A stretch of 64,000 bases of DNA from Microthyrium microscopicum (taxonomy: Eukaryota; Ascomycota; Dothideomycetes; Microthyriales; Microthyriaceae): the NCBI GenBank assembly GCA_010405405.1, contig MU004235.1, positions 2,302,426 through 2,366,425 on the forward strand. The letters run 5' to 3'. The notes below the pieces were generated by a model. The model was not told where the DNA came from, did no database searches, and was given only the letters and a program-made list of their open reading frames with translations. Each line of letters begins with the position of its first letter. Positions within the stretch are counted from its first letter, which is position 1. Shown one piece after another: positions 478 to 49,942 of this stretch. The position numbers and the translations under genes are program-made.

Positions 478-657
478 TCATGCACCATTGCTGACACCAT
501 TTTGTACACCATTCGTGGCAGCGGCCTTGACGCCATTGCTGTCACCGTTCTTGGCTCCGTTACTATGGCCGTTCTGGACCCCGTTGCCAACGCCATTGGG
601 GATGACCGTCTTTAGGTCGTTAGCCACGCCGTTCTTGACTTCACCATTGGCTAAATC
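478..657 (-). repeat. Asn-Gly-rich low-complexity tail of the cyclase
   Basis: The C-terminal coding part repeats the dipeptide NG about ten times ([18 protein letters not shown] and similar). The DNA repeats in short imperfect units of about 9 to 12 bases. It lies beyond the catalytic domain and is likely a disordered tail grown by replication slippage. Confidence 0.75.
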
Positions 658-2106
658 GTCGTTGAGCACATTGATCTTGACAGCATTCGAATCGCTGGTA
701 GTCGTCATAACCGACTTGCCGTTCATGGTGTAGCCAGTATCGCTCGGGTCCACAAAGGCATCAATACCCTCACCATTGCGAGGATAGCCCTTCATGATTT
801 CCTTGTGCTTGCGTAAGGCAGCAAGGAGATCTTCCTGTGACACGTCGTTCAAGAAAACGCACTTCCCAAGTGGACTTGGAACGGCCGCTCGTAAAAGACC
901 ATCTCTTGTTCTCAAAATTGCTTGTGTACCCTTGTCGAGAATTTCTTCGTCGAATTGAGGATGGTCCATTGATAAACCGGCCTTGGAGAACAGGTTGAGT
1001 AGACGCTCATGTTGCTCATTGCTAAGCAAACCTTGGACGTTAGCCAGTGTAGCGGAATAAGCCATATCAATTGAAATGGCATGACCATGTCGTAGAGGAA
1101 CTTCAGGTACTAGTTCATGTAGAGGGGACCACCTGTGGAGGTTAGTAATGAGAAATATATTGTCTGACAAAAGCTTCTTACGTATGTCCGTAGGCAATGA
1201 CTCTATCGAGACCAATTTCGTGTAAGTTTGGCGTCTCGAGTTTCAACATCTCGTAGATACCGGCCTTGTTGATTGTATCTGCTGCATCACGCACCTCTTG
1301 GGATGCGCCATCGGCACGACCAAATGCAGTACCAATGAGCTGCTCACAGTATTTGTCGAGGAGATCGAAGGTAGAGATGTGAGCACAAGATGATATCTTG
1401 ATCAACTCTGCAAATCCATTGCGAATCTGGGCCTCTGGAAGTGTTCGCAGAAAGCTAAAGTCAAGAAATGTTTTCATGGGCGCATGATAAGCACCAAGAC
1501 GATTCTTATAGTTGCCATGATTGACAGCTACCTTGATCGAAACCGATGCATCAATCAGACCAATCAAGGTCGTTGGAACACGAATGAAGTTCGTGTTTCG
1601 TCGGTAAGCGGCGGCAGCGAAACTATATCAGGTCAGTATGTTATCGTGGTGAAAGTGTAGCGTAGACAGAGGACTTTGTACCCAGCGACGTCAGTAACTA
1701 GTCCACCTCCAACAACGAGAACCGGTTCCTAGGGAAGTCAGCCAAAGTTTATCTCATCATATTGCGCGTGATTTACTTTTCTGTAAATGCCAAACTTGGT
1801 CATGGAATCCACAATGCTCAAGAATGTATCGATGGTTTTTGCTTTCTCACCAATCTTGGTCTTATGCACGCTCAGGGTGATGTCGTGGTGATCGAAATAC
1901 TTCTGAATCTGCATGCCATAGCTGTTGAAGATGTTGGCGTCCATGACAGCCAAACATCTGCCCCATCTTTTGTAGCTTTCCGCAAGGTTGGGCTTCGAGG
2001 TATCGAAGACGTTATCCAGGAAATGAAAATCGTACTCGATCTTCTCGTAGCCCGCCACATGAAAACCATCTGGTCGCTCAGCGACAGTGGCTTGAAGATT
2101 GGACAT
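478..2106 (-). CDS. Sugar-phosphate cyclase, desmethyl-4-deoxygadusol synthase (DDGS/EEVS-like)
   Basis: This enzyme belongs to the dehydroquinate-synthase-like sugar-phosphate cyclases. It would turn sedoheptulose 7-phosphate into desmethyl-4-deoxygadusol (or 2-epi-5-epi-valiolone) using NAD and a metal. There are four exons: 2106-1777, 1728-1682, 1622-1182 and 1132-478, giving 490 aa. The NAD-binding motif [14 protein letters not shown] crosses the second intron. The metal-site region reads [10 protein letters not shown], then GHTWSPLHE, then [10 protein letters not shown], which is the cyclase pattern and not that of shikimate-pathway DHQS. The start fits the family N-terminus ([12 protein letters not shown]). 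The last 60 or so residues are an odd Asn-Gly-rich tail. The gene is divergent from the O-methyltransferase, which supports a shared pathway. DDGS is preferred over EEVS because of that neighbour; the sequence alone does not settle it. Confidence 0.9.
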
Positions 2107-3271
2107 GTTTTGGAAAAGCTCTGTGGTAACACTGCAATCACAATTGGTTATGGTCTGTAGTCTTCAAAGGTACCCTCAGCTTCTTGTACTCTCAGGGAAC
2201 AGTTTTGGAACCCAGCTCTAGAACAATCATGCTGTAATGAGGTATTAGAACTAGCTTCTACAAGCTCAGCCATTTCTTGAGTACTACTTGTGAATTGAAA
2301 GCATAATCCACAATTGCTGCTGTATTGTTGACATGTTGAATATGCACCTCGCAGGTATGTGCGATTTCGGATGCTTGTGAAGACTACCAAAGCCCTGTAT
2401 TGAGCTTTGAGTACCTGTCATGGATGTGAGATGCAGCGCGTTCAGATGTCTTTTCCCTGTTGATTCATCGATTCCGTGTGTCTTGGACGCGATCTGCGAA
2501 AGATTTCTTCGTACAAGCATTCCATTAGACTGGCACGCCGTTCAAACGTGTTCTTGGCTCTTTCTGTGGTCGAGGTTCGAGAATTTGAGGTCGAGCGAAT
2601 TGCTACGCTGAATAAAGCGTACATGCGTCATTCAATACCTCTCTATGACGGGCTGATGGGATTGTGAAGGTTAACCATGCATTTTGCAGCCCAGAGAACC
2701 AAGATATTGCAAGCTCCGGTAACCCTGTACATTCACAGACTTCGATGACGCTAAAAAAAGATAGAAATGCTTCCAGGGACAATAATTCACATGTTTTAGC
2801 GTGCTTCAGCCCCAGCTTTCGCTCAGATCCACACTTTAACTCCTAACTCTATTCTAGCCTCCATTATGTAGCCACATATCTTCTCAATACCTGCTCCTGT
2901 ATCCAAGATCAAGCTCGTTGGATCTGGCGTACTTGCTTGCTCCCCAGACTTCTCCCGTCAGTAGTCACTCTAATAGATATGACGCTAAACCTAGAACAAT
3001 AACCATAGCGATCATGACCCAGAGTTATCATTCTAGACTTGCATGAGGTTAATCCTTGAACCGATGTTTTGTCTGAGCTGTAGGTAATGGTGACGACCAA
3101 CAACCCACCATCTCCCCACGCAATCATGTCAGAAATTGCGTGCGACCATCACACTAAGCACAATTGCAGGATCGGAACGTGTTTACAGTGCTTGTCAGGC
3201 ATCACAGTGTGAAATTGATATACGATCACTTAACACTAGAACTATTGGATAAGCATCCATATCAACTGTTA
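2107..3271. promoter_or_regulatory. Divergent promoter between cyclase and O-methyltransferase
   Basis: About 1.2 kb separates the two divergent start codons and holds no convincing gene. A shared bidirectional control region is expected for a two-enzyme pathway. I see scattered CGG and CCG triplets, the usual half-sites for Zn2Cys6 regulators, but no strong palindromic pair. Confidence 0.5.
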
Positions 3272-4176
3272 ATGGCACAACATAGCTTCAATCCAGAAAA
3301 GAAGTATGCGGAGCAGGAAGACATATTTGTAAGAGTATGACCCTCCAAATAATGATTTCCTACTAAAGTTGACAGTTTGACGATGGCAGAGAAATCGAGT
3401 TGTTGCATTTCGTCTATGGTCACCCGCAAATCGATGATATAAGAGGGAATCCACAGCGGGTCCTGGCAGCCATTGACGAATTTGGTCGCACTAAGAAATA
3501 CCTCATGAACGTTGGTGAGGACAAAGGTCGCATTGTAACGGAGAGAATAGCCAGTGAGAAACCAAAAGTAATGATGGAACTTGGTGGTTACGTTGGATAC
3601 TCGGCTATACTATTCAGCGATGCCCTACGCAAAGCTGGGGGCACACGTTATTGGACTCTTGAGCGCAATCCTGAGTTTGCAGCCGTTGTGGCCTCACTGG
3701 TAGATCTGGCAGGGCTCAGTGATCTCGTTAGAGTTGTTGTCGGACCAAGCGATGCATCAATATCACGATTACACAAAGCAGGCCAATTGAAGCATGTCGA
3801 TGCTATATTTCTGGATCATTACAAACCGGCATACACAACAGATCTCAAGCTCTGTGAAGAGCTCAAGCTTGTAACACCTGGATCCATTCTCTTTGCAGAC
3901 AATGTCATCAAGCCCGGAAACCCTCCATATCTGGAGTATGTGAGAAGCACTTGTGAGGAGAAGCGGAAACGAGTAAAGGTCGGGAAGGTCAACGGTATCG
4001 ATAGCCAATTTCCGGATCGTACAGCGAGTCAGTACAAATCTCGAGAAGGTCAAGAGAAGCTGGATGAAACGAGATCAGGCAATCCAAATCTGATATATGA
4101 GAGTGAGTTGGTTCATAGCTATGAACCGAGCGGTGTTAAGGTTCGTCATTTCAGGACTGCGAATTATCTTCACTGA
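3272..4176 (+). CDS. Catechol-type SAM O-methyltransferase (deoxygadusol-forming)
   Basis: This is a class I SAM-dependent O-methyltransferase of the catechol (COMT) type. Next to the cyclase its likely job is methylating desmethyl-4-deoxygadusol to 4-deoxygadusol. Two exons, 3272-3328 and 3376-4176, give 285 aa; the intron is 47 bases with CTAAAG near the acceptor TTGACAG. Motif I reads ELGGYVGYSA (about residues 86-95). The metal/catalytic motif LDHYK lies near 164 and ADNVIKPG near 192, matching the DH(W/Y)K and DN positions of COMT. The short first exon (MAQHSFNPEKKYAEQ) is inferred from splice signals and continues the family N-terminus FFDDGREIELLHFVY. The chosen start is the first ATG in that frame, so an earlier exon is possible. 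Confidence 0.88.
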
Positions 4177-4813
4177 CGGAAAGCAGGATGCAATAGAAAT
4201 TACAAGATGTGTCGGAGAAGAATAACGCAAGCAGCAGCACTAATTGTAAAGGTTGCATAGAGTCATGGCAACATCTCATCAACATGATCCGCAGAAAATA
4301 CCGGAAGTGTCAGAAGCTTGATCATACACAGGTTGACAGGGCGTCTTGTACGGAATTAAAGTTAAAAGTGGGCGACGTATGTTGAGAGACAGTCGGCTTC
4401 TTCGCCAAACACTCAAAATGAATAATAATGCTAGCATTGTATTGTGCGAAATGATACCTGGCATCAATCTACTATAAACAGAAGTTTCATGAGTCATTTC
4501 AGATATAGCTTTAATGCTGAATGTAGGCAAGGTGAGAAAATCGTATGGCTGTTTCAATGCTCAATGCATCACGAGTTCACGACCATGTTTGTGAACACCA
4601 CTACATGCTAATGCTTTCCAAAGTGAAAACAAATGATTCGCAACCTTAATGCTAACAAGCTCTACTCAGCTCCGATCATCGGTCAAGTCTATGATCTCAT
4701 CGTTGGTACGCCATGAGAGTTGGGGCCCCAATCAAACTTTCCTTGGTGACTGGTAGCATCGCAAGAATTTTAGTTCGTCCAGTCATTTGTCACCATGGAC
4801 CGTCTCGGTTGAT
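4177..4813. promoter_or_regulatory. Promoter region of the A-T-R gene with CCG-N5-CGG site
   Basis: There is no gene here. At 4672-4682 the sequence CCGATCATCGG forms an everted CCG-N5-CGG pair, a spacing and arrangement that Zn2Cys6 dimers are known to bind. It lies about 130 bases before the first in-frame ATG. Binding by the cluster regulator at 8401-10438 is an inference. Confidence 0.4.
4795..4812 (+). promoter_or_regulatory. Five-codon upstream reading frame before the A-T-R start
   Basis: A short frame (MDRLG, then TGA) starts in a strong context, CACCATGG, and stops one base before the first in-frame ATG of the A-T-R gene at 4814. If both lie in the mRNA, the better-placed first ATG would capture ribosomes, and the main frame would depend on re-initiation or leaky scanning. 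The alternative is that transcription starts between them or that the real start lies in an unseen upstream exon. Confidence 0.45.
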
Positions 4814-7800
4814 ATGGAAAGCAATTACTTTGTATGTACACTTGGAGAGGCAGACGAGTGTACTCACAAGCCGCATTATCAAAACGTTAACCAACTACTG
4901 GACGAACAATTTCAGAAAAATCCTGATCTCCCGGCCATAGGATTCTATACGGTCTCAAAAACCATTACAGCCGAATATGAAGAGCTTGGATACGAAGTTC
5001 TAACCTTCAAGCAAGTACAACAAGGTGTACTGCTCACTGCGGAACTACTCAAAGACAATATCACTGCGAACCCGAAGCAAGCCGTAGGACTTCTGTGCGC
5101 AAGCTCCCCTAGATTCCTCTTCACATGGCTGGCTTGTATCAGACTGGACCACCCGGTGTTGTTGATAGCACCAGAGTGCTCGGCAGCAGGTATTGCACAA
5201 CTCTGCGAAGATTGCGGAGTCAAAGTCCTCATTACCGACGACAAAAATGCGGAACTTGGTCAAGATGCATCAAATCAAAGGGCGAATGGCGAAAAAGTTG
5301 GATTGTCGATTGTAACCATGCCTTTTAGTGAGGCAGAAGTCAGCGAGATCGTCAGGAGAGAAACAAAAAGCTTCCTGGTATCTCCCATCGTCGCCAGTAA
5401 AGAAACTGCATATTTTCACCATACCTCCGGCACATCCTCTGGCTCTCCAAAGCCCATTCCACAATCACATCATGGAGCTGTAGGAGTACTTCCGGTATTT
5501 GATGGGGAGAGTATGGCAACATTCACTACAACACCGTTGTACCATGGTGGACCAGCAGATATCTTTCGCGCCTGGACAAGTAATGCTCTAATATGGCTCT
5601 TTCCATCACACAAGCTGCCCATTACCCCAGGAAACATCTGTCGATGTTTGGCGACAAGCAGCGCTGCTGCAAAGACCCAACGACTGCCACCGATATGTTA
5701 CTTCGCGACGGTCCCCTATATACTACAAATGATGTCGGCGCAAATGTCCGCGGAAAAGACCGCAGTTGCATCTATGCAACGTATGAGTCTAGTGAGCGTG
5801 GGTGGTGCGGCTTTATCAAGAAAAGTTGGCGACGTCTTGGTCAGGGAAGGCGTGAAACTGGTTTCCAGATTTGGCAGTGCCGAATGTGGATTTCTCTTGT
5901 CATCTCATAGAGACTACCTCAGGGACCGAGAGTGGCAATATCTCAGACCACCAGACAACTCAAACAAACTCAAATTCGAAAAACGGGAAGAAGGACTGTA
6001 TGAGTTGGTCGTACTCGCTGGCTGGCCGCACATGGCGAAGAGCAACCGCGAGGACGGATCATATGCCACTTCAGATCTTTTCGAGCCACATCCGCGTCTT
6101 AAAAATGCTTGGAGGTACCACTCGAGGGCTGATGCCCAGATCAGCTTGGTTACAGGAAAGAAGTTTGATCCAGCGCCCATCGAAGATGCCGTAGTCGCAG
6201 CAACCTCATTATTAGCGCATACGTTAGTCTTTGGCAACGATAAGCCATATCCTGGAATGCTCTTATTTCGATCTGAAGGAGCCGCGGAGATGAGTGATCA
6301 AGAAATCATGGAAGTACTGGCACCGATCGTACACAGAATTGGTGTCGAAGGTCAAGCTCATACGCGGATATCAAATGATATGCTCATACCTCTGCCATTT
6401 TCAAGGACCGCTCTGGAAAAAAGTAGTAAGGGCACGATTCTGCGTGGCCGAGCACAAAAACGCTACGCTAGGGAGATTGAGAGCGCCTATGACAAAATTG
6501 GAGACTGTGGCAGCCGGAGCTGTCCTGATGAGGAATTGCCAAATGTAATCACTCGCATTGTGCTGAGCAGCAAGCCCGACCTCGATGCTGAGAAACTTCA
6601 TCCAACTACAGAGTTGTATTCTTTTGGGATTGACTCAATTGCGAGCATAAAGATTAGAAAGCAGCTCCAGCAACTGCTGCCTGAAGATGCGCAACATGTA
6701 TCCTTCAGTGTGGTTGAAGATTGTGGTTGTGTGGCACATTTGGTTGACCACATTCGAGCTCTCAGAGAAGGAGTAGATCAAAGCGATACAGCATCGGCAG
6801 AGGACAACCATAAGATGATGCTTGACCTAGTGGCTAAATACAGCAACTTTGCTGAGCATACCTCACAAGCCTTTAAGCCAGAAACTGTCAACAACCCAGT
6901 AGGGCAAATGGACGAAGTAGTGGTTCTGACTGGTGCTACTGGATTCCTCGGATCGTATGTGTTAGATCTGTTGAGATCAAATCTAGGTGTTAAGCATATA
7001 TATTGCTTGGTACGTGGTGCCACATCGACAGCTGCGTATGAACGTGTACACGAGTCACTCCAAAGCAGACAACTCTCTGGTCTAGAAGACAGCAAGAACA
7101 TCTCAGTGCTACAAGCAAGACTGGGCGACGAAGATCTTGGCCTGGATGCTGAAAGCCTCGATAAAATCAGACATGAAGCTACGATTGTCTTGCACCTTGC
7201 GTGGTCAGTCAACTTCCGTCTAAAGCTGCCTAGCTTCGAGAACGATATCGCAGGTGTGCGCAATCTCATCAACCTCTGTGCCACATCCTCGCGAACAGAG
7301 AAGCCAAAATTCGTGTTTTGTTCGTCAGTTGCAAGTGCATTGAACCACACTTGGTTAGTCGTGCCTGAAACAATCTTGGACGATCCTTCTTCGGCAACAT
7401 CCATCGGATACTCGCAGAGCAAGTGGGTTGCTGAGCAAGTATGCTCAAAAGCTGCTGCAACGACGCTCCAAGGCAGAATAACGATTCTTAGAGTGGGTCA
7501 ACTGAGCGGCAATTGTTGGAACGGTGTTTGGAATATGAAGGAAGCCTGGCCGCTAATGTTGAGTACTGTAAAGCTCACTGGTAGCCTCCCCGAACTAAAA
7601 GGGGAAATGTTGGATTGGCTACCCGTTGATATAGCAGCAGCAGCTGTTGTTCAATCAGGGATGTGCTCAGAAGTGGAAAACACGTTAGAAGTATTTCATG
7701 TTATGAATGAGGACACGAGGGTGCTTTGGCAGGATGTGCTGGACTGGTTACAGAAAAGACTTTGTGTGCCTTTGGAGATAGTCACCCCTCAGCATTGGGT

Positions 7801-8047
7801 TAAGCAGCTGGAGAATGCGCGGGATGCCGGTTCACAGCATCCGGCTCTACAACTTCTCGAGCATTGGAAAAATAGCTACCAAGATTATAATGGTGTTTAT
7901 GTTGATCGGAGAAGATTCAGTATGGAACGTACCGGATGGGTTTTGCCAATGCTGAATTGGGTACAACCGGTCGACTTGCGGTATTTCCACGCGATTTGGA
8001 CTTGGATCGATTCCTACTCTCAAGATGTAATAGATCTTAGTAATTAA
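4814..8047 (+). CDS. Adenylation-thiolation-reductase enzyme (NRPS-like, A-T-R)
   Basis: A single-exon 1077-aa adenylate-forming reductase. The adenylation domain covers about residues 20-560, with core motif TSGTSSGSPKPIPQSH near 200-215 and GGAALSRKVG near 331. The carrier domain has the phosphopantetheine site FGIDSIAS with Ser608. The reductase domain begins at VVLTGATGFLGS (about 702) and keeps Tyr866 and Lys870 in GYSQSKWVAEQ, so it should use NADPH to release a thioester as an aldehyde or alcohol. There is no condensation domain. Placed beside DDGS and the O-methyltransferase, it may activate an amino acid, or a mycosporine carboxylate, and reduce it to an amino alcohol. The start at 4814 is the first in-frame ATG; an upstream TTG at 4787 is less likely. 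Confidence 0.87.
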   Translation: MESNYFVCTLGEADECTHKPHYQNVNQLLDEQFQKNPDLPAIGFYTVSKTITAEYEELGYEVLTFKQVQQGVLLTAELLKDNITANPKQAVGLLCASSPRFLFTWLACIRLDHPVLLIAPECSAAGIAQLCEDCGVKVLITDDKNAELGQDASNQRANGEKVGLSIVTMPFSEAEVSEIVRRETKSFLVSPIVASKETAYFHHTSGTSSGSPKPIPQSHHGAVGVLPVFDGESMATFTTTPLYHGGPADIFRAWTSNALIWLFPSHKLPITPGNICRCLATSSAAAKTQRLPPICYFATVPYILQMMSAQMSAEKTAVASMQRMSLVSVGGAALSRKVGDVLVREGVKLVSRFGSAECGFLLSSHRDYLRDREWQYLRPPDNSNKLKFEKREEGLYELVVLAGWPHMAKSNREDGSYATSDLFEPHPRLKNAWRYHSRADAQISLVTGKKFDPAPIEDAVVAATSLLAHTLVFGNDKPYPGMLLFRSEGAAEMSDQEIMEVLAPIVHRIGVEGQAHTRISNDMLIPLPFSRTALEKSSKGTILRGRAQKRYAREIESAYDKIGDCGSRSCPDEELPNVITRIVLSSKPDLDAEKLHPTTELYSFGIDSIASIKIRKQLQQLLPEDAQHVSFSVVEDCGCVAHLVDHIRALREGVDQSDTASAEDNHKMMLDLVAKYSNFAEHTSQAFKPETVNNPVGQMDEVVVLTGATGFLGSYVLDLLRSNLGVKHIYCLVRGATSTAAYERVHESLQSRQLSGLEDSKNISVLQARLGDEDLGLDAESLDKIRHEATIVLHLAWSVNFRLKLPSFENDIAGVRNLINLCATSSRTEKPKFVFCSSVASALNHTWLVVPETILDDPSSATSIGYSQSKWVAEQVCSKAAATTLQGRITILRVGQLSGNCWNGVWNMKEAWPLMLSTVKLTGSLPELKGEMLDWLPVDIAAAAVVQSGMCSEVENTLEVFHVMNEDTRVLWQDVLDWLQKRLCVPLEIVTPQHWVKQLENARDAGSQHPALQLLEHWKNSYQDYNGVYVDRRRFSMERTGWVLPMLNWVQPVDLRYFHAIWTWIDSYSQDVIDLSN

Positions 8048-8290
8048 TACGTCCATAGAAGTGTTCGCGTTTCTCAACCTGCATTGTACCAAATAAGCTC
8101 TAGGATTGGCGTAGCCCACGATAATGGAAGACAACTCTGTAGCAGGCTTCGAGAACAAGAGAAAATCTTAGAGTGACAAGCTCAAGCTGATAGAGTATCT
8201 CGCTTGTCCCAAGTACAACCATCCCGCAATCCTTTCCAAACTTCAAGAAAGCGCTCAGCCTTGCCAACCTTGTCAGCCTTATAGACTTTT

Positions 8291-8320
8291 CGGCAAATGC
8301 CGTCGGAATGCCGAAATCCG
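8291..8320. promoter_or_regulatory. CGG/CCG cluster upstream of the cluster regulator
   Basis: Within 30 bases there are two adjacent inverted pairs, CGG-N6-CCG at 8291-8302 and CGG-N4-CCG at 8304-8313, then another CCG at 8318. The two units resemble each other (CGGCAAATGCCG and CGGAATGCCG). It lies about 80-110 bases before the start of a Zn2Cys6 gene, so self-regulation is plausible but untested. Confidence 0.5.
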
Positions 8321-8400
8321 ACCATCTTTGACCACAACCTTTCCGGCTTTCTATTTCTACAACATCTATTTTTGTATTCCCTACCAATTTGGACGTATCG

Positions 8401-10438
8401 ATGTCTGAATCATCATCCCGGCGTACGGGAAGCGCAGAGTTCCCACGCGCACCTTATGGAAATGCCTGCATGGAGTGCGCCCGCAGCAAGACAAAATGTA
8501 CCCTTTCCCGTACCGGCCCGAAATGTGAAAGGTAGTAAGCAGTGCCTATTTTACACATTTGTCTCATATTGATGGACTGGTAGATGTACTCGGCTAGACA
8601 AGAGCTGTTCCCCAGCCACCAAAGGTCGCAGACGCGGTGATGTCGGAAAAGGGGCATCGACTGCCCTCGCTTCCAAGACCGATGCACTAGAAGAGAAACT
8701 TGAAGGTGTCTTGAGAATTCTGCAGCATTCGAATCCTAGTGCCTCGTCAGCGCTACATGCCAAAGCTCAACCTGGGGGACACAAGGAGCGACCATCAGAA
8801 ACGCCAGCGACGTCCGAGTCACTGGCCGGACCTGTAGGTTCGAACTCACTAGCAGGGCACAAAAGATCGTCGAAAAATCTTCACAAATATCCTCTGGAAT
8901 CTGAAGCAGAATGCGAGGAGTTCCTAGCAACCTACCGCCTCAAAATGTTACCATTCTTTCCCGCGGTCATTATCCCTCAGAACACAACGGCCAAAGAACT
9001 AAGCATTCAGCGTCCATTCCTCTGGCTAGTCATCAGAGCCATATGTAGCAAAAACTCAGCTCGACAGAAGGCACTGATAGCGGAAGTTTTCCAAGCACTA
9101 AGCAATGACCTTGTGCTCACATGTACAAAAAGTCTCGACCTGCTTCTCGGAATTGTAGTCTTTTCTGGCTGGGCGCTTTTTTACCTCTATCAAGGGCCAA
9201 TGCGCTTGACCACAGTGCTACTTCTCGGACAGGGGCTTGCGACGGAGCTTGGATTGCTGAAGCCTGTTCCTCGCGGACCTTTCGGAAGATTGTTGGGCTT
9301 TAGTCGACAGCAGAGCCTCACTTCAGCTACCGGCATGGTTGAATCCACTGGCACGCTGGAAGAGCGAAGAGTAGTACTAGGACTTGTCCATCTCACTTCA
9401 ATGTTTGTGGAGCCCATTGCCACAAAATCTTGACCTTTCAAGTGCAAGCTAACCTTTAAATTCTCAGCGCGGCCAACGTTTTTCACCGCCTTGAACCCAT
9501 GCAATGGACTCCATATTTGGCGGAGTCCCTACAGAAGCTCAGTGAAGCAAAGGAGTACACCACGGACGAGTTCCTCGTGTATCTTGTAAGGGTGCAGCAG
9601 ATCTGTGACAAGGCTATGTCGACCGATGTTTCCGCAGTCGGTGTTCCTCAAGACGTTTATGTGCAAATCTACCAATCGCAAATAGAGGAACTCAAACGAT
9701 CGATCCCGGAACACCTCCAGTCGAACCGTAATAGGCTGCCTCCTTTCGCCTCTTCAACATATGCTGATTATGTTCACAGAAATATTACAGCTACACATAC
9801 TTGATGCTCAGATTAGTATCCATGAGCGAAGTCTCATTCCTCAACAACAGCACAAACAGTCTGCCTCAGCTCAAATACAACGCCTCGAGAGTATTTGGGC
9901 TTGCTTTAATGCAACTAATTCCTGGATTTCGACAATGAATTTCTGTCTTGGTCCTGCTAGCTGGCCACACATGTCGTTGGCAATATTCGCCCAGATCTCT
10001 CATTGTATGATCTCACTGTTTCGCTTGAGCATATTCGAATCCCCTGAAGTCTTTTGGGACCGCCAACGGGCTCGTCAAGAACTAGACTTGGCAGAAGTTC
10101 TCAAGATGTGGATCGCGAACGGCATAAAAGTTGCCGAAAGCATGAAGATGGACGATAACTCTCTGAGTGATGAAGAGAATTGCTGGACTCATCTTGTCAA
10201 GCGCTTGTCCTCGGTGCTGGAGTGGTGGGAATCTAAAGTGCTGCCAAGATTGATAGCGACCGAATCTCGAGATCAAGCATCGAAGGATGCTTCCGCACTA
10301 GCCGCGTTTGACGTTTCGAGTTTGCAAATGGCTGAGCCACTGGACTTGACGATGATGAACTGGGACTTCTTCGATGATCTATGGATGCAAGAGCTGATGA
10401 ATGGAGGCGACGAGCCTATGAGAGACGCTATATATTAG
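8401..10438 (+). CDS. Zn2Cys6 transcription factor, likely cluster regulator
   Basis: A fungal binuclear zinc-cluster regulator of 622 aa. Exons are 8401-8531, 8584-9402, 9468-9727 and 9780-10438. The first intron splits the zinc cluster: CMECARSKTKC precedes it and CERCTRLDKSC joins across it, giving all six cysteines. The cluster is followed by a basic GRRRGD stretch and a short linker predicted to dimerise (TDALEEKLEGVLRIL). The middle region (TYRLKMLPFFPAVIIP and after) looks like the usual fungal regulatory domain. It lies 353 bases downstream of the A-T-R gene in the same direction, and its upstream region is rich in CGG/CCG pairs, so it is the best candidate for the pathway regulator of the mycosporine-type genes. 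Confidence 0.88.
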
Positions 10439-10796: not shown

Positions 10797-12382
10797 TCAC
10801 ACAGTGGGCGCCACATGCACCTCCCAAGGCGTTTTCAGCACACTGGCATTTGGGAACAGCTTGAATGTCGGATACGTCACATTCGTCGCCAACAATCCAG
10901 TGATGGTCTTGTTGCTGACATATGTCAGAAAATCGCCTGATACGGCGACATATTGCAGGAGAGCAACTTTCGGGTCGAGGGTGATGAGACTGGTATCATT
11001 GGTGAAGAATTGCACGAAGGACGAGGCTATGAGGCCAACATCTGTGAGGGATGTGTGGACAGTGCCAACTAAAGAGAGTTAGTTGATGGGAGAGTCAATG
11101 GAAAGATTGGTCGTACGAAGCGTCATGAACCAGCCAGCGCCGGTTTTGTTGAGGGAGCTGGCTGCGATGGATTTGACGACATCGAAGTGCTGACTGCCGT
11201 AGAAAGGGGTGGGCTTCGCGCTCCATTCTTCGGAGTCGGGGATGAGAATTGGCAAGGAGACATCAGTGGGGAGTGGACCGCTGTCTTTGCCACTGGTAAC
11301 AATCAGTATGATTATGTGATAGACAGGAAAAACTTACGGATCAAACGGTAAAGCGGCAACTGCAGGCACGAGTGGTTTTGAGTCTTGCAGGTAGCGGAGC
11401 TGTGTGTGTCAGAAGAGAAGGGAAGCTGCTAAGTATATTGACACTTACAACTGCGTTCGACCCAAAAGAGTGGCCTGCGATTATGGTGCGATTCATGTCA
11501 ATTCGACCTTTCCATTGAGCAAGAGCCTGGCCTTCGCTGCGCGAGTTGGCGCTGAATACAGCTTGACCGTCGCCGTTGGCGATAGACTGAAGTGTGCGGG
11601 TAACTTCAATAAATTCAGCCTGCCGCATCTCAAGCTGGCGGCGGTGAAACTCGGTGTCATTCATCGTCGGTCTATCTGATGTCAGCTACCTTTTATGATC
11701 CTTGCAAAACGGCGTTGGCTTACGAGACGACATCCTGTGTAAAAGCTGTCACGTTATACGATGTCCCGTTCTTAAACTTCACTACTGTCGCTGGAGAACT
11801 GCCATCGCGATGCGCCACGCCGGCTATGACAACTCCGCGACTTGCCATCTCTCCGTAGTACTGCGAATACCAGTCTGTCATAGTCGGATTTCCATGGGAG
11901 AAGATCATGACTGGAAATGATTCATTACCAGGCAGGAAATTAACATCCACTTCAGCGGGAATAGCTAGATCTGATGCAAAAATTCCGAACCCAATCTCAA
12001 TGAGGGCAGGCGAAATTGAGCCATTGAGAGAGTCTGAGAGGCCTTTGGCGATGAGGTCGGCAGAGACAGACAGCCATGGATGTTGAGGCTTTGTAGACTT
12101 AGTGTTCTTGTCAATAGGATAGTAAACATTGATCAGTGTGGTATCAAGCTTGTTCAGTCAGTCTCTCTGCCAACGTAATCAACAAGAACTTACCTTGAAG
12201 GCGGGTTGTTTGGTAGCTTTGAACACAGTATCCGTGATATTTCTTGGATCCGCAACAGGAACCTCCAGTGCAATGGTCCCGACTCCATAAGTGCCCGAAT
12301 ACGCTGGCAGTGCCGCGCTTACTAGAGTTGAATAGTTGATGATGGTCAATATCAGACTTGCGTGTCGTAAGAATGAAGCCAT
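10797..12382 (-). CDS. Secreted PAF-acetylhydrolase-like alpha/beta hydrolase
   Basis: A 448-aa lipase/esterase similar to platelet-activating-factor acetylhydrolase (isoform II type). Exons are 12382-12194, 12148-11724, 11671-11449, 11399-11338, 11292-11117 and 11068-10797. It begins with a clear signal peptide (MASFLRHASLILTIINYS, cut near VSA-AL). The oxyanion region reads MIFSHGNPTMTDWYSQYY. The nucleophile elbow is AGHSFGSNAV, with Ser in GHSFG. The later exons carry FDVVKSI, a possible His region. Several NxT/S sites suggest glycosylation. The substrate is unknown; short-chain phospholipid acyl groups are the family norm. I see no link to the cluster at its left beyond proximity. Confidence 0.83.
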
Positions 12383-13050
12383 CGCGATCGGATTTGCGGG
12401 GGCAGACCACGGTTTTGACTTCAAGTTACCTTCCACGCTCTTGCTTTTATGACCCAAGTCAGGATAACATCTGGAATAAATTTCAAGGTCAAGTCAGGCG
12501 ACTTCTTGTATACCTTCAAGAGGTGCACAGAGTTGGGCCATTTGATCAAAATTGCCTTGGAAATAGGTCCCTTGTGCCCAACCAATCAACGTGGAGATCG
12601 CTCAAGGCAAGGCTGGAGAGGCTCAAATCCTAGATCAAATCAGACTGTGAAACAGCATTATTACCCTAGTGAATACTACCTTAGAGTAGTAGTGCGAGGA
12701 AATCTTGGAGGGCAAGAATTTTATCGATAATGACTAGTACTATTGAAGGTGGTTCCTTAAAGCTTACCTAACATTGATACGACTATATGACTATTAGAAC
12801 GCAAGGAGCATACCGTATATGCCATTAGGTAGAATATATGATTTGGGTCGAAGAGGAATTATTTTTGAGCGCTAGTATTAATTGGTTGCTTACTACTTGC
12901 AGCTCCAACTGCGCTTGTCCATATCTTAATTTCAGCTTATTTGTGACGCAACACCATGTCGATCTCCATTGTCTAGTACCTGGTAGTAACTAAGGTACCC
13001 AGGTACCACCAACTCTCTTTTCCTTCAAGCCAGTTATCACCAGTTGTATC
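12383..13050. promoter_or_regulatory. Divergent promoter with GGTACC-rich hairpin
   Basis: This gap separates the lipase gene from the Zn2Cys6 gene at 13051, which are divergent. Near its right end an 8-base inverted repeat (GTACCTGG at 12976-12983, CCAGGTAC at 12999-13006) can form a stem with a 15-base loop. No coding region is apparent. Confidence 0.45.
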
Positions 13051-14148
13051 ATGGCCCATAGCTCGCCGAACATTGCTCTCCTTCCGAAGCTCACGCGAGC
13101 ATGCAATGCGTGCATAAAAGCGAAGCGGAAATGTAGCTTAGACTCGCCAAAATGCAAACGTTGCCAAAAAAGACAAAGCGAATGCGAGTACGTAAATCAG
13201 CCACTGACCGCTAAAAACTTCAGTAAAGCGAATAATCGTGTGGAACATGAGTTCAGTACTCCACATACGTCTCCTGGAGCACTTAACCCCTATATATACT
13301 CCGTATGCATTTGTCTGGACGACCCCATTGCTACGCTTACAGTTGACCCGCGAACACTTCTATTTCTCACAAACCATCTCAGGAAAGAGATAAACTCCTT
13401 CAGCCAGACGGGAACCAACAACTTCATCCATACCAAAACGCCGCCATCTGCACTCCTCAGTGACGTGCGATGCTTGATAAACATGCTTGGATCTGAAGAG
13501 GCACTGGATCACGCCAGTCAACTCAACACTATTCCACCTGGTTACATGCAACTCCTCCATCATACACTAATCAACATCATCTCCGCTATACCTACTCTCC
13601 ACGACCATGCTAGTCTCCTTCCATTCACGCAATCACTGATACTGGTTCAAATTCTTACCCTCTTTATCCTTCCGCCTGGATTCATACCACCATGGATCCA
13701 ACAAACCAGCCAGGCACGTCGCAAACTTCTCAACCGCGCAATGCGCAAACTCTGGCAAGCAGCTCCAGCCTCTATTTCGTCAACATTGTCAAAACACGAA
13801 GCATATGCCTTGGCTGAGTCGATACGCCGCACTGTAATCATGGCGTTGGAACTCGAAGCGCAATGTAGCGTTTATGAGACGGGTGTCTATAGTATTAGCC
13901 TCTTTGGAATCACTTTCCCTTTTGATCGGCGCTTCCGCTTATGGGGTATCGAATCTGTGGCATTTGAAAAAGCAATAGAGAAATCCGGAGATGGTTACGG
14001 GATACAGCATATGGTTAGCCATCGCGAATTCTGCGACATGTTCGACCGGAGAGAGCTTGAGCTGGAGGGCCCGTTTGACTTGCTGTTACTGGTTGGAGCA
14101 AAGGGATTGGATACGGTAGAAGCGAGATATGGGATTGAATTCACTTGA
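13051..14148 (+). CDS. Small Zn2Cys6 DNA-binding protein
   Basis: An intronless gene for a 365-aa protein. The zinc cluster is near the N-terminus: CNACIKAKRKC, then CKRCQKRQSEC, at about residues 17-45, with all six cysteines in place. The remainder is mostly alpha-helical with leucine-rich stretches and lacks the large fungal regulatory domain that I would expect in a 600-aa member. It converges with the NmrA-like gene and may control that gene or the divergent lipase; this is inferred only from position. Confidence 0.85.
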   Translation: MAHSSPNIALLPKLTRACNACIKAKRKCSLDSPKCKRCQKRQSECEYVNQPLTAKNFSKANNRVEHEFSTPHTSPGALNPYIYSVCICLDDPIATLTVDPRTLLFLTNHLRKEINSFSQTGTNNFIHTKTPPSALLSDVRCLINMLGSEEALDHASQLNTIPPGYMQLLHHTLINIISAIPTLHDHASLLPFTQSLILVQILTLFILPPGFIPPWIQQTSQARRKLLNRAMRKLWQAAPASISSTLSKHEAYALAESIRRTVIMALELEAQCSVYETGVYSISLFGITFPFDRRFRLWGIESVAFEKAIEKSGDGYGIQHMVSHREFCDMFDRRELELEGPFDLLLLVGAKGLDTVEARYGIEFT

Positions 14149-14230
14149 TTTAATCAAGCGAAGCGGACCGCTAAGTCACAATATACTCCTCTCTAACCCC
14201 TGCTCATCTACAAGTTGTCCATTAACCACT

Positions 14231-15313
14231 TCAAGTAGCAGCGGGAACGATGGTGAGCACATCCTCAGACTTGGAGGATCCTTCTCTGTTATCCCACCAC
14301 TCGACGACACCTTTGACACTCGCTTCGAGATCATCCGTCTCCAAACCTAAAGCGTCATTCCACAAGCCTTTGTTCGCGCTATAGTTGTTGAGATTCCCGT
14401 TGCCATAGATAGTCGCCCATATGCTTTCAGCTATACCGTCTACATACTCCAGATTGCCGGTCGGTCGAAATCCAGGAAAACTCTTCTCAGCTCGCGCATT
14501 CCCATCCTTTGCCATCTCTGCTGCATTCACCTGCTTCACTTCGAACTTGCTGCCGGTGTGCTTCTCGAGCAAGTCAAGGACTTCGTTCTGCGTAGTGGTG
14601 AAGGAGTTGACATAGACGTATTTGTTCTTGGCGAGTTCCGACATGGGCACATTCTTTCCAGTGCCGTCCTGGAACCCTGGACTCGGCGTCGCTGAGAGAG
14701 CGGCAGCGACCGCGAGCCCAATTTGATCGATATTGGTAGTTTCATATGGAACGTCGCCGCCATCGAAGATCATTGCGGTGCGTGAGGGAACGTTCCAGCC
14801 CATGTTCTCCCGGATCTGGAATGACCAGTCAAAAAATGCACCAGTGCAAATCGCGGACCAAGAAATATCTGATTCGCGGCTCTGCAAGTACTCAACCACG
14901 CTAGTCTTGAGGAGTGCCAATGGCAAATTCTTCTTCAATGAGTCTGAGGCAGATGTGTCTATGCCATATTCCGAAGGAATGAATCTCTGCACCGTCTTGG
15001 CAGCAATGGCGGCATCAATGATGGCTCTCTGCTGCGCAACCGTGAATGTCGATGTGGCAGAGACGATGGCGTCCTGACCTTCGAAGCTGGACTGGAAAGC
15101 TGAGAGTGCCACGTCCGGGGATGAATAGTCCGCTGTATAGATCTTGATGGAGGAGTCTGGGAACATGTTGCGTGTTCTGTCTAGTGAGGAAGAGCGAGTG
15201 AGAATGGAGATCGTGTAGCCTTGGGGGTGGGAACGTAGGGCATTCACAATGGCTGGGCCTACACTGCCTGTTGCGCCAATAACGAGGACATTCTTGATGG
15301 ATTTAGGAGACAT
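14231..15313 (-). CDS. NmrA/isoflavone-reductase-like NAD(P)-binding protein
   Basis: A single-exon 360-aa atypical short-chain dehydrogenase of the NmrA or isoflavone-reductase/PCBER type. The dinucleotide motif VLVIGATGSVGPAIV is at residues 9-23. SEYGIDTSA follows in the middle, where this family holds its substrate loop. Related proteins are either NADPH-dependent reductases of aromatic compounds or redox-sensing regulators, and the sequence does not decide which. The upstream region carries a striking set of repeats (15543-15838). Confidence 0.85.
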   Translation of the reverse strand: MSPKSIKNVLVIGATGSVGPAIVNALRSHPQGYTISILTRSSSLDRTRNMFPDSSIKIYTADYSSPDVALSAFQSSFEGQDAIVSATSTFTVAQQRAIIDAAIAAKTVQRFIPSEYGIDTSASDSLKKNLPLALLKTSVVEYLQSRESDISWSAICTGAFFDWSFQIRENMGWNVPSRTAMIFDGGDVPYETTNIDQIGLAVAAALSATPSPGFQDGTGKNVPMSELAKNKYVYVNSFTTTQNEVLDLLEKHTGSKFEVKQVNAAEMAKDGNARAEKSFPGFRPTGNLEYVDGIAESIWATIYGNGNLNNYSANKGLWNDALGLETDDLEASVKGVVEWWDNREGSSKSEDVLTIVPAAT

Positions 15314-15542
15314 CTTTGGAAAGGAAACGGCTGTGCTTGTCTATTGAATTGAAAAGAAGGCAGTTGTCGATGTGAGAGTGGAAGCTGATTTGGGTTTCTC
15401 AATTCTATGCTGAAGATGGGGGGATGCTTTTATACCTTTCAAGACGGAGGATCGGTTCAACCTCACCACCTACTAAGCAACTTGTTCTGATTCGAACTTG
15501 ACCTTGATAGTTGTTCTCGCCCATCACCATTCCTGATGAGGA

Positions 15543-17774: not shown

Positions 17775-20700
17775 ATGGACTTTGAAAGCAGCAACGCAGG
17801 CGTGATGTCTGACACTGAGCCCAAGATGATTCGGCCACGAGGATACCAGCTTGAAATGTTCGATCGAAGTATGAAAGGAAATGTTATAATTGCTGTAAGT
17901 TACCACCACAAATCTAAAACTTTTTGAGACGTTAAGTTAACAATTCCTAGATGGACACTGGAAGTGGCAAAACACACATGTACGGCGTCATTATTGCTTG
18001 TCTTATCCTTGATGTGTCTAATTCTGAATTCAGCGCGTTACTTCGAATAGCCGCGGAAATCGATCGTTGTCCGCCAGGAAAAGTACAAGCTTGACGGAGT
18101 CTATCAGAGGAATTTCCTAACCTCAAATTAGCGAATATGGTTTCTTGCCCCCACCGTCGACCTTTGTGGACAGCAATACAATGTCATCTGCTCCTATTTG
18201 CCAGCAATAGGTACACGCCTCCTAGTTGGCTCGGACGGTGTCGACCGGTGGAGCGAAAAGCGCATTTGGGATGCTGTTTTGGAGAATATTCAGATCGTGG
18301 TCTCAACCCATGCGGTTTTGGCCGATGCTTTGACACACGGGTTCGTAAACATGCTTGATCTTGCGCTCTTGATATTTGATGAAGGTATTGTTTGTTTATT
18401 TATTTGATCGCGGACACACAACACTATTTGTCATTGGCTCTCACTGACAGCATTTCTCTGATTATAGCCCACCATTGCTCTCGAGGGCATCCAGCCAACA
18501 GAATCATGTTTCACTACCACTCTGTACGAGATAAGTATGGAACCAAGCGGCTACCTCACATACTCGGTCTATCAGCTAGCCCCATTGCAAGATCAAAGAT
18601 ATCGGAACTCGAGTATGTCCATGGGTTCGTACCCTTGAACTGATCCAGCTAATGTAATCCAGCAAGATTGAATCGAACCTCGATTCTATCAGTGTCACGC
18701 CTCGAGTCAATCGTCAAGAGCTACTCAAACATGTTCATCGACCGATACTTAGACGACTTGAATATGTGCCATGCGACCCAGAAGCGGATCACATAGACAG
18801 CCAGGCTCTATTCTGCCTCAAAAGAATTTGTAATAATATGAGCATCCCATTTCAGCCTGTTCTACCTCAACCTGGACAACCAGCTCAAGCGCAACCCAAG
18901 AAATGGAAAGGTACTTCCCTCAAAACCCAGCTTGGCAGTTTCTGCAGGAAGGCTGTTCACATATATGAAGAGCTGGGGCCATGGGCCGCGAATTATTTTA
19001 TTCTGGAGTCCATTGCGGTTTTGGCAAAGCGGCATGATAGCACTAGTATGTTCTCAATCGAAGAGCTCCCAGATCGGGAGGCACTTCTGCGAACTCTCAA
19101 CTCTGGCCCACTGCTCAGACTTGGACAGGAGCGTGCGACGGTGAGACATTTCGCTATATCGAACAAGGTTGAGAAGCTCCTCTGCTTTCTAGAGAAGCTG
19201 GACGCCGAGAAGTCATCTGGAATATTATTTGTCAGGCAAAGAGCAACCGTCAGCGTCCTGTGCCATCTCCTATCGGTACACCCAAGAGTCAAAGGACAAT
19301 TTCAATGCGCCACTTTTGTTGGAACTTCGAACAATGCAGCAAGAAAGTACAGCATGGCAGAGCTTCTGGATTTGAAAGCACAAAGCGAAACTCTAGGAGA
19401 ATTTCGCGCCCGAAAGAAGAACCTGATTATAGCGACCGATGTTCTTGAAGAAGGAATAGACATCACAGCATGTAATCTCGTCTTTTGCTTCGATCCTCCG
19501 CCAAACGTCAAATCATTCATCCAACGACGTGGTCGTGCTCGCGCTCAAAAGTCGCAGTTTGTGATTATGTTCCCCGACAATGAAGAGGGAGACAAGATCG
19601 CAAAGTGGCATCGACTGGAAGAACAACTCATTGAGGCTTATCAGCAGGAGCAAAGAGAAATCAAGGACTTGAGAAACATTGAAGACGAAACTGTAGAAGT
19701 TGTGCCTGGCGAGCTCGTTATCGAATCAACAGGGTATGAGATATGTATATCATCGCGTGGTTACATTAGGACTAACCTTTTCATAGAGCATGCATCACAC
19801 CTGACTCGACTATATCTCACATCCATCATTTCTGCGCATGTCTGCCACATGAGCCCTACGTCGACCTTAGCCCAACATTCTCCTTCGCGGAGAATCCATC
19901 CACCAAACGGATATCCGCAACTGTCACTCTTCCAAACTCAGTGATCTCGAGCGTCAGGTCCACTCAAGGACTAAGCACATGGAAAACTGAAAAAGCTGCA
20001 GCAAAGGACGCTTCTTTCCAGGCATATAAAGCCTTGCATGAGGCTGGTTTGCTCAATGACCATCTACTCCCCCTGTCTCGTTCATGGACGGAAGATGTAA
20101 TACCTGACGAAGACGCCATTGCCGCCCTGATCAACAGTAGACCGCAGTACAATCCATGGAAACCACTGGCAGACGCATGGTCGGAACCTGATATTCATCA
20201 AACCCAGATTGTTCTTAGAGGTGATAAAGATGAAGATTTGCATATAACTCTCATCACTCCTGCCGTCATTCCTGCTATTGATCAAATCAATTTGTTCTGG
20301 GATGAAGAGACGAAGCTTCAGCTGCAATTTGTACCCCCAGTCAGAACATGTCTCGACGACTCTGCGACTATTCCAATTCTGAGAGACATCACGCGACTCC
20401 TCATGAATTCTACCAGTGCTCCAAACGGCAATAGAAGCGTTGATTATGTTGCTCTGGTCAGTCCAAACTTAGCGGAAGACCTGTTTTCCGCGTGGCACAC
20501 TGCCAATGAGGGGGGAACATCCGCTTTTGAGCATTATACTGCTAGAAGCATACCTTCTGGAGTTATCAGACCTTCTACCAAATCGAGACTTCCTTACCGG
20601 TTTGTAGGCTGGTCTGACCCGCTTGGAGAACAGCAAGACGATCCGGAAGTTCACTGTGTTAGCTTGACGAGAAGACGTAATTTCCTAAATTCGAGGAGCT

Positions 20701-22268
20701 TCCCGCAGAAGTTTTCATTACCGGTTGATCGAGAGGATGACCCACACAGCCCATCGTCACTTCAAAGCTTCAATATCCAGGACTGTACAGTTGACCGACT
20801 ACCCTATTTATATGCACGATTCAGTCTTTTCATTCAGCCCATTCTAGAGCAAGTCAAATGTCTCATGGTCGCAGAGAAACTACGAACCACTGCATTGAAG
20901 CATGTTCCCATCAAAGATCTTCAGCATATCGTCACGGCTATCAGTGCACCTTCGGCAGGCTTAACGACTGATTATCAGCGTTACGAATTCTTTGGCGACT
21001 CAGTACTCAAGTTCTTCGTCTCTCATCAACTATTCTGCGAGAAGGAAAACTGGCATGAAGGCTTCCTAACTAAACGCAAGAGCTATCTCGTTTCGAACCA
21101 AAAGCTCGCCCAAGCAGCTTTGAGCCTGAAATTAGATCAATTCATCATGACAGAAGAGGCCAAGATTCGAAAATGGAAACCACCAATGATCACCGAAGTC
21201 CTCCAAGAACCAGTCAAACAGCGGGAACTATCCATGAAAGTTCTCGCAGATGTCGTGGAAGCATTGATAGGCGCGGCATATATCGATAGCGGCTTTGACA
21301 CTGCAAGAAGGTGCTTGAACGCATTCCTCCCTGAGATCCATATCGAAACTCCACATACCACTCGATCGCTTCCTAGCAGAGAAAACACGAGTTTCATTGC
21401 AAGAGCCGAATCGATTATTGGCTACGAATTCAAGCAGAAAGCTATTCTTCTTGAAGCTCTGACCCATCCTTCCTACCATGACTTGAATACCGAATCTTAT
21501 CAGAGACTGGAGTTCCTTGGCGATTCTGTTTTGGATATGGTCTTGGTCCGTCTGTTGGCTTCGATACACGAAACCACAGTGCTTACTCCAGCCAAAATGA
21601 CGTGGATTAAGGCAGCTCTCGTAAATGAAGGGTTTCTTGGGTTTCTATGCCTCGACTACGGTGTGGAGTCAAAACGAGTCGTCCGCATTGACGAGAAAGC
21701 CCCAGGAACATTCGTAAAAAGGGTGACGAACAACTCGTTGTCTATCTGGGCGTTGATGCGACATTCCACGGACCGGAATATCACTGCATCACAAGCGGCT
21801 TGCAAAGCTCGATACGAGGAATATCGTGATATCATTCATGAGGCTTTAACCACTGGCAAATCTTACCCTTGGCTTGCGATTGCGCGATTGAACTTGGATA
21901 AGTTCTACTCTGATATGATCGAGTCCATCATTGGAGCTATTTTTATCGATTCGAACGGAGACCTTGACACTTGCGAGGCTTTTATCAGGCGGATCGGACT
22001 CATTACCGTGTTGGAGCGAGTGATACGCGAAGACATTGAAATGCGACATCCAAAGATTCTTTTAGGCATTTTGGCAGACACGAAATCAGTATCTTATGAG
22101 GAGAAGCGAGTGCAAAGACAGCTGAGCGGTTCGCTCGAGGATCGTTATGTGTGTACGGCGTTGGTGGATAATGCCGAGATTGCAACTTCGGGGGACTGTT
22201 TGAGCAGAGAGGAGGCAGTCATCGCAGCTGCTATCGAAGCAGTAGAAATCTTGAAGTTAGAAAGGTAG
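17775..22268 (+). CDS. dcl2: Dicer-like protein 2 (RNA-silencing endonuclease)
   Basis: A complete Dicer that cuts long dsRNA into small RNAs in antiviral and transposon silencing. Seven exons (17775-17894, 17951-17979, 18034-18082, 18132-18384, 18468-18612, 18663-19733, 19787-22268) give 1382 aa, the usual DCL2 size. The helicase part has Walker [10 protein letters not shown] at residues 41-49 and the DEAHHC box formed across the exon 4/5 junction. The helicase C region reads [10 protein letters not shown] and QRRGRARA. A Dicer dimerisation region follows ([13 protein letters not shown]). Both RNase III domains are intact: [10 protein letters not shown] near 953 and [10 protein letters not shown] near 1128. 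The C-terminus resembles a dsRNA-binding domain. I see no PAZ domain. It ends 115 bases from the opposing helicase gene. Confidence 0.95.
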
Positions 22269-47274: not shown

Positions 47275-47800
47275 CATTGCGGCTCGCGATTCACACACTG
47301 CACCGACGGAATAGAGACCTTGATGAAAGTGTAGTGGGAGGAAAAGTGCAAGGCTCTCGATGTGGAGTTTGAAGTGTGGACGGCTACATCCGCGCCGCTG
47401 TAGTTATTGCACCATTCCTAAAACAGCGTAGCGTCGTTTTTGACTTGAAGGTTCACCCGCAATTGCTTTTCTACATTTCCTGTTCATAGGAATTGATTTA
47501 ACATTGTTACATTTTCGGGATGCTCCATTTTATGACTCAGAAGAGGAATGTGTCTCTGCTTAGACTAATAGCGATACTCCCCTATCACTAATGTCATTCG
47601 AGAAGGTCGTAAAACCTAAGCATGCTTGGTTGGAGGATATAGGGAATTTGGGATGGAGGTAGCCGTGCGATTGATTGAGAAGTCTGTGTTTTTGCATTTT
47701 TAAAGAGAGCATGACTCCTTTGAATGACGAGACAGTTTGAGAGGTCAAGGACGTGATATGTTTGGAGTAGAGTAGATATCGAAGCAATCCTTGAGAGTTG
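47275..47800. promoter_or_regulatory. Promoter of BTB copy A and 3' end of copy B
   Basis: This 526-base spacer separates the tandem paralogues. I see no coding sequence in it. Confidence 0.5.
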
Positions 47801-49259: not shown

Positions 49260-49942
49260 CTTGATAATTGCGCGATGGCTGCGATATTCAGCAATAGCGC
49301 AAAAGGATCGAACTCGATGAACAGAGTCAAGGTTTGAGAGAATCTCGCGATGTGGATAACTTGAGGTTCGACGGCAAACTCCGAAACAAAGAAAGCACGC
49401 TACGCCGCTCCAAGACTAGGACCGTTTCTTCTTCGACTTGCGTCTGCTGAAGAACATCTAAAGCAGACAATTCATACTGATTCATCAACCAAGGAAACAA
49501 GTGAAGGCTAAACTTTCTCGCTAATGAAAATCTCCAGACACTTTTCGCCATTTACGAGTTGACTGAAAAGCTGGGTCATGCGTAGTAGCGTAATACAAGG
49601 GCGAAATATGCACACACGAAGGCAGTTTCAGAGAGTCTAAAAGGTACAAGAGCTCGTCAAGATGTGTATTTACAGCAGCTCATAGACTGTGTTCGGTTAT
49701 TTAATGAACTTGATAGCGACCCGACTGGGAGAAATATATATGAGTAAGAAATCTCGATATATCTCCGCAAGCTGTCGCACTCCATAATCTCATTGCTAGC
49801 GCCACTAGCTTCAGCGCCGGATACTTTCGAGTCTATGACACTCATATGCCTCAACTGATATTGTAAAGCTGAGGCGTTTTGATGCGCGTCTCAGTCAAGT
49901 CCAGATTCCATCTTTGTAATACTACTACTTCAAAGCATTGTT
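49260..49942. promoter_or_regulatory. Divergent promoter of BTB copy B and GT8 gene
   Basis: About 680 bases lie between divergent genes. A 74-codon open frame on the minus strand (49327-49551) has no recognisable feature and no support. Confidence 0.45.

Follow-up and report, generated by a model that had tools for sequence, protein, structure and literature searches.

Fungal mycosporines often bear amino-alcohol side chains, as is generally known and as part of a study of Phaffia rhodozyma also states (PMC10057719). The MYC cluster described in that yeast comprises a 2-desmethyl-4-deoxygadusol synthase (DDGS), an O-methyltransferase (OMT) and an ATP-grasp ligase (ATPG), and its product is given as mycosporine-glutaminol together with a glucoside. 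The sections of the paper dealing with the cluster name three genes only, mention no A-T-R protein and place the glucosyltransferase outside the cluster (PMC10057719). We analysed a stretch of 64,000 nucleotides from Microthyrium microscopicum contig MU004235.1 (the window, G000:C6:2302426-2366425; host fungal genome of 36.9 Mb in 20 contigs) where the same three enzymes are encoded beside an A-T-R protein, a carboxylate reductase resembling nonribosomal peptide synthetases (NRPS-like). Judged by homology, the locus is a fungal mycosporine cluster in the order ATP-grasp, DDGS, OMT, A-T-R and regulator, and the A-T-R gene comes on top of the DDGS-OMT-ATPG cluster as known from Phaffia. The A-T-R protein very probably acts in the mycosporine pathway, and it is likely to reduce the side-chain carboxylate.

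The core mycosporine genes

A preliminary description of the window had placed a DDGS, an OMT, an A-T-R protein and a Zn2Cys6-type regulator next to each other, and our gene models bear this out (Table 1). The locus is not a product of chance since its open frames are long, its splice sites are consistent and the listed relatives of its proteins are 43-84% identical. The A-T-R protein and the ATP-grasp protein encoded next to the window are each 100% identical to a listed M. microscopicum protein (P0001 and P0241, respectively), as expected of that species or of a strain nearly the same. The DDGS and OMT genes are divergent. The cyclase was observed to score 496 bits with 56% identity against 5tpr, 231 bits against 4p53 and at most 117 bits against 3-dehydroquinate synthases (DHQS). 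We take 5tpr to be a DDGS and 4p53 to be an EEVS, their PDB labels being 3-dehydroquinate synthase and Cyclase respectively. On these scores the protein is nearer to DDGS than to EEVS or DHQS, and both of the latter identities were ruled out. The earlier label "DDGS/EEVS-like" is therefore kept in its first half and dropped in its second. Among the 120 matches listed, relatives of the DDGS are 77-84% identical, and those named (de/des)methyl-4-deoxygadusol synthase are 78-82% identical. A 30-residue segment quoted for the Phaffia DDGS (PMC10057719) has, by eye, 24 of its 30 letters in common with the window protein. Two DHQ_synthase matches occur in the genome, one being this DDGS and the other lying within a 1626-residue frame on contig C4 which, as expected, would be the pentafunctional AROM protein. 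At its C-terminus (window 478-717) the DDGS has about 80 residues of repetitive, Asn/Gly-rich sequence beyond the aligned enzyme core.

The OMT matches the Pfam family Methyltransf_3 (49.1 bits) and is 65% identical over 228 residues to the methyltransferase portion of the predicted OMT-ATP-grasp fusion P0301. The start codon of the ATP-grasp gene is located about 50 bp to the left of window base 1 and the gene adjoins the DDGS gene; the first impression from the window, that the locus has no ATP-grasp gene, was overturned by the left-flank DNA. All three genes of the fungal mycosporine cluster are thus adjacent, so that the set is predicted to be complete and the A-T-R gene to be an addition. 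A homologue of the ATP-grasp protein was found in all 61 bacterial DDGS loci (27-32% identity; cut by the contig end in L045), while an OMT homologue was detectable in 40 of them (23-31% identity, E 1e-5 or better). These loci came from a scan with a two-sequence alignment of a fungal DDGS and the 5tpr stretch; a single fungal DDGS as query returned no relative in the scan of the other genomes' contigs. The ATP-grasp protein has itself as sole match in its own genome, and the UniRef names of its relatives read "ATP-grasp domain-containing". It matched no Pfam family at E 1e-3, and PDB sequences gave insignificant matches only at E up to 1 (best E 0.16). The missing Pfam match weakens the domain label only; the homology to a mys-locus protein, as judged from the alignments, stands.

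Table 1. Predicted genes of the cluster and the linked glycosyltransferase (window coordinates unless given otherwise)
Feature	Coordinates	Strand	Gene model
MysC-like ATP-grasp ligase	L003:7918-9477 (left flank); window -1582 to ~-47 from first ATG	minus	519-codon frame
DDGS (2-desmethyl-4-deoxygadusol synthase, MysA-type)	478-2106	minus	gene model, 4 exons, 490 aa; start 2106, stop 478-480; GT-AG introns 1776-1729, 1681-1623, 1181-1133
O-methyltransferase (MysB-type)	3272-4176	plus	2 exons, intron 3329-3375, 285 aa
A-T-R protein (NRPS-like carboxylate reductase)	4814-8047	plus	single open frame/exon, 1077 aa
Zn2Cys6-type regulator	8401-10438	plus	multi-exon; exon 1 from 8401, first intron 8532-8583
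GT8 glycosyltransferase, candidate mycosporine glucosyltransferase (weaker member, inferred)	49943-51082	plus	Glyco_transf_8, 379 aa

Domains and conserved residues of the A-T-R protein

The A-T-R protein contains the Pfam domains AMP-binding, AMP-binding_C_3, PP-binding and NAD_binding_4, and combines an A domain, a carrier domain and an NAD(P)-binding R domain with the carrier serine and the Tyr-x3-Lys motif. An intact carrier Ser608 and reductase Tyr866/Lys870 had been named in the preliminary description, and we find them at the same numbering in the motifs GIDS608 and GY866SQSK870. All three residues are kept in all 120 listed A-T-R proteins. The closest solved R domain is that of the Neurospora crassa CAR.

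Adenylation domains that activate alpha-amino acids carry aspartate at the position of PheA-235. The corresponding residue of the A-T-R protein, placed by hand against the PheA motif, is His244, and histidine was observed here in 120 of 120 listed proteins. No canonical amino-acid code was thus found when the specificity of the domain was predicted from its pocket residues, as had been proposed earlier, and comparison of structures gave no decision on the substrate. Because the canonical aspartate is absent, the A-T-R protein probably acts on a mycosporine-amino acid. Residues D249, R252 and R378 are also kept in all 120 listed proteins, which suggests one shared substrate across the group.

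Linkage to mycosporine genes in other fungi

We compared the lists of A-T-R, DDGS and ATP-grasp proteins (120 matches listed in each, all of them used, entries lacking a contig size being skipped) with two proxies for linkage: an identical size of the longest contig, which we infer to mean the same contig, and the numbers of the locus tags. Among these matches, exact size matches were found for nine A-T-R/ATP-grasp pairs (one from this species, so eight further), twelve A-T-R/DDGS pairs and eight DDGS/ATP-grasp pairs, with the 813,929-bp contig of Neophaeotheca present in all three sets. Besides this species, 19 cases share a contig with ATP-grasp or DDGS (nine plus twelve, after subtraction of the self pair and of a contig listed twice). 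A-T-R relatives are hence often linked to mycosporine genes. As an example, contigs of 11,418, 15,604 and 16,199 bp each carry an A-T-R and an ATP-grasp gene, and the two tags in Vermiconidia calcicola are LTR37_002529 and LTR37_002532.

The linkage to DDGS was observed to be looser. The A-T-R and DDGS tags differ by 76 in Oleoguttula (LTR36_002202, _002278), 69 in Meristemomyces (LTR08_007910, _007979), 112 in Neophaeotheca (g6020, g5908), 118 in isolate NU459 (g0193, g0311) and 250 in Neocucurbitaria (097480, 097730), the last being equal to 25 genes if the tags step by ten. By contrast, DDGS and ATP-grasp tags are 2-3 apart in Exophiala spinifera, E. bonariae, Zalaria, Salinomyces and Neophaeotheca; in E. 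xenobiotica LTR70 they are 13 apart and the listed contig sizes also differ. Sixteen assemblies had both A-T-R and DDGS listed under the same assembly and, counted by eye, 12 of these carry the two on one contig, where chance would give 1.0 of 16 for a 20 Mb genome or 0.6 of 16 for a 35 Mb genome. The formal probabilities (1e-14 to 1e-17) treat the species as independent and should not be read at face value. Friedmanniomyces, Boeremia, Cryomyces and Aureobasidium were dropped as the same assembly was not established; Meristemomyces LTR85 and LTR62, Elasticomyces and M. microscopicum itself have no DDGS row among the 120 matches listed.

A tree of the 120 listed A-T-R proteins, built by a quick method, placed seven of the eight ATP-grasp-linked members in one 20-row clade with support of 100 and the eighth, P0115, in the other half. 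The 12 DDGS-sharing members are split eight and four over the two halves. Neophaeotheca was counted with the DDGS group, and P0008 was marked as linked, its contig of 1.18 Mb denoting a shared contig and not closeness. The listed A-T-R homologues include one from Knufia obscura (P0094), a relative of K. petricola A95, in which CRISPR/Cas9 editing has been described (PMC11303440).

Colletotrichum and Botrytis occur among the 120 DDGS matches listed and not among the 120 A-T-R matches listed. Botrytis, if it makes reduced mycosporines, would speak the opposite way to the Colletotrichum profile, and neither was used as evidence. Colletotrichum graminicola makes mycosporine-alanine according to parts of two papers (PMC4974774, PMC4527079), which would fit a missing reductase. 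Three Colletotrichum DDGS proteins were listed here (P0212, P0219 and P0235), whereas a 2016 survey states in part of its text that its Colletotrichum genomes hold no mycosporine cluster (PMC4974774).

A linked GT8 glycosyltransferase

P0003 (Vermiconidia) and P0007 are predicted fusions in which a GT8 domain follows the C-terminus of an A-T-R protein; the linkers between the two parts are short and alike. As they are sister rows in the A-T-R tree, they may reflect a single fusion event or a common gene-model error. With about 300 bits and 49-51% identity, window 49961-51010 is the best match to the GT8 part of both among the five GT8 loci returned for the genome; the next locus (L074) gave segments of 32-34% and 66-77 bits. 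The window gene matches Pfam Glyco_transf_8 with 42.5 bits (cut-off 24.3), and no match to PDB sequences was found at E 0.001. GT8 enzymes are retaining, and this one is a candidate mycosporine glucosyltransferase. It is located 42 kb from the A-T-R gene, and the interval holds Dicer-like, AAA and other unrelated genes. An aldo/keto reductase frame (window 51408-52151) adjoins it on the opposite strand; it could act on an aldehyde intermediate or have no part in the pathway.

Proposed pathway and alternatives

By homology, the DDGS would form 2-desmethyl-4-deoxygadusol, the OMT would convert it to 4-deoxygadusol and the ATP-grasp ligase would form a mycosporine-amino acid by attaching an amino acid. 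The A-T-R protein, most likely after this ligation, would adenylate the side-chain carboxylate of the conjugate and load it onto S608 of the carrier domain, from where the R domain would release it reductively with NAD(P)H as an aldehyde or, in two rounds, as an alcohol. The product would be mycosporine-glutaminol, mycosporine-glutamicol or a similar amino alcohol, to which the linked GT8 may then attach a sugar. Reduction to the alcohol within the mycosporine pathway, in either order of ligation and reduction, appears reasonably likely from the predicted proteins. If the carboxylate is reduced, we lean modestly towards the conjugate, over the free amino acid, as the substrate. We put forward more tentatively, and at somewhat less than even chances, the full scheme in which the A-T-R and GT8 proteins supply the last two steps still lacking from the route to fungal mycosporine alcohol glucosides: the former reduces the finished mycosporine on its carrier and the latter glucosylates the new alcohol. 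In this scheme the pair would go back to the ancestor of the Dothideomycetes, would have been fused in some cases and would have stayed in loose linkage with the DDGS cluster.

Several observations weigh against a dedicated reductase of this kind. The strongest published one is that the Phaffia DDGS, OMT and ATPG alone gave, in Saccharomyces cerevisiae, a peak co-migrating with mycosporine-glutaminol, so that this system would do without a reductase gene; the product was identified by co-migration in high-performance liquid chromatography, and the source of glutaminol is unstated in that section (PMC10057719). The same paper, in the part concerned, describes fungal clusters as three core genes without peptide-binding enzymes (PMC10057719). 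In addition, the substrate of the A domain is not readable from its code or its structure. A-T-R and DDGS lie about 25 to 118 genes apart in the five countable assemblies of the 12 with a shared contig, the other seven having no countable tags. The two genes are on separate contigs in the remaining four assemblies (Hortaea werneckii D0862, Aplosporella, Teratosphaeria nubilosa and Lambiella), though at least one of the two contigs is no longer than 103 kb in Hortaea, T. nubilosa and Lambiella, where looser linkage could not show. Elasticomyces LTR66 also has its A-T-R and ATP-grasp genes on different contigs. The preliminary reading, that the A-T-R protein performs the reduction on the free amino acid or on the conjugate, is supported in part: the complete mycosporine set and the contig linkage favour it, and the Phaffia yeast result opposes it.

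These points bear differently on the alternatives. The A-T-R protein might reduce free glutamine or glutamate to the amino alcohol, which the ATP-grasp ligase would then join to 4-deoxygadusol. The linkage evidence serves this order of steps as well as it serves reduction of the conjugate, and the Phaffia ATP-grasp enzyme is stated, in the part of the paper concerned, to incorporate glutaminol (PMC10057719). The invariant histidine in place of aspartate speaks against activation of a free alpha-amino acid, and we consider this route unlikely, with the proviso that it overlaps with the reduction in either order favoured above. The protein might also halt at the aldehyde. The aldehyde would then be reduced by another enzyme or cyclise, and the outcome would be a mycosporine aldehyde or a product of a new type. 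The Neurospora crassa CAR with the closest solved R domain forms aldehydes, and the aldo/keto reductase frame beside the GT8 gene would suit such a scheme; we nevertheless regard it as very improbable.

The A-T-R gene could furthermore belong to an unrelated pathway, leading to some other aldehyde or alcohol, and merely lie next to the mycosporine genes. The architecture accepts many acids, closeness to DDGS was established in none of the 12 DDGS-sharing assemblies, and the four separated assemblies point the same way. Against this stand the 19 further cases of a shared contig, the predicted A-T-R-GT8 fusions together with the linked GT8 gene here, and the invariant D249, R252 and R378 with the single substrate they suggest. 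On balance such a coincidence seems quite improbable, and we prefer reduction of a mycosporine-amino acid by the A-T-R protein.

The preliminary description knew of no enzyme for this reduction, which agrees with the open-access literature we searched (subscription papers and preprint servers lay outside the search): no enzyme is assigned to the step in the portions covered of PMC11567843, PMC11303440, PMC10512386, PMC3360786, PMC5999785, PMC7826186, PMC4227064, PMC12204325 and PMC4527079. For the marine mycosporine-like amino acid palythinol, a reductase is presumed for a comparable step in part of one paper (PMC3083659). Now that an A-T-R gene can be named, with linked relatives across many fungi and a glucosyltransferase candidate, the reduction becomes directly testable; the locus also offers enzymes with which natural sunscreens could be made in reduced, glucosylated form. 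If the proposal is true, the glutaminol supply of the three-gene Phaffia cluster needs a second look.

Regulator and neighbouring genes

The spliced start of the regulator reads, by eye, C-x2-C-x6-C-x8-C-x2-C-x6-C, which is the Zn2Cys6 spacing; the label rests on this motif because the Pfam Zn_clus threshold of E 1e-3 was missed. To the left, frames read by eye as a mevalonate kinase and a cation transporter follow the ATP-grasp gene, so the cluster probably ends there. To the right (window 11344-15340) are a PAF-acetylhydrolase-like gene, a second Zn2Cys6 gene and an NmrA-like gene, which were not counted as members. The Dicer-like gene between the cluster and the GT8 gene (Helicase_C, Dicer_dimer and Ribonuclease_3; window 18658-22268) is followed at 46504-47403 and 48588-49415 by two similar tandem proteins which have the stretches GPSFREG and DLDDDPTAMM in common, look like a duplication and appear BTB-like by eye with no Pfam match. 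An NACHT-type NTPase (NACHT_N, NPHP3_N) extends over two neighbouring frames at 58904-61194.

Comparison with known systems

The DDGS proteins of cyanobacterial and actinobacterial mys clusters are 53-58% identical to the fungal DDGS, and as here they are accompanied by an ATP-grasp homologue (61 of 61 loci) and commonly by an OMT homologue (40 of 61). The next enzyme of the bacterial clusters is an NRPS-like A-T-TE protein or a D-Ala-D-Ala-ligase-like protein. An A-T-R-like match was observed in only three of the 61 loci, all Rhodococcoides, at 23-24% identity. The CAR-like frames lie at 1640-5149 in L041, 1557-5090 in L050 and near 3031-4995 in L055, with the DDGS at 8001 in each; we set them aside as support since they come from three genomes, show low identity and lie kilobases away. 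The Neurospora crassa CAR and other fungal CARs have the A-T-R architecture and differ from the present protein in their genomic partners. A survey notes NRPS-like genes in putative mycosporine-like biosynthetic gene clusters of Hypoxylaceae, for which genes the passage concerned gives no domain order, reaction, function or product (PMC8403587). This resembles the present locus, and an NRPS-like gene beside mycosporine genes is therefore not wholly new in print (PMC8403587).

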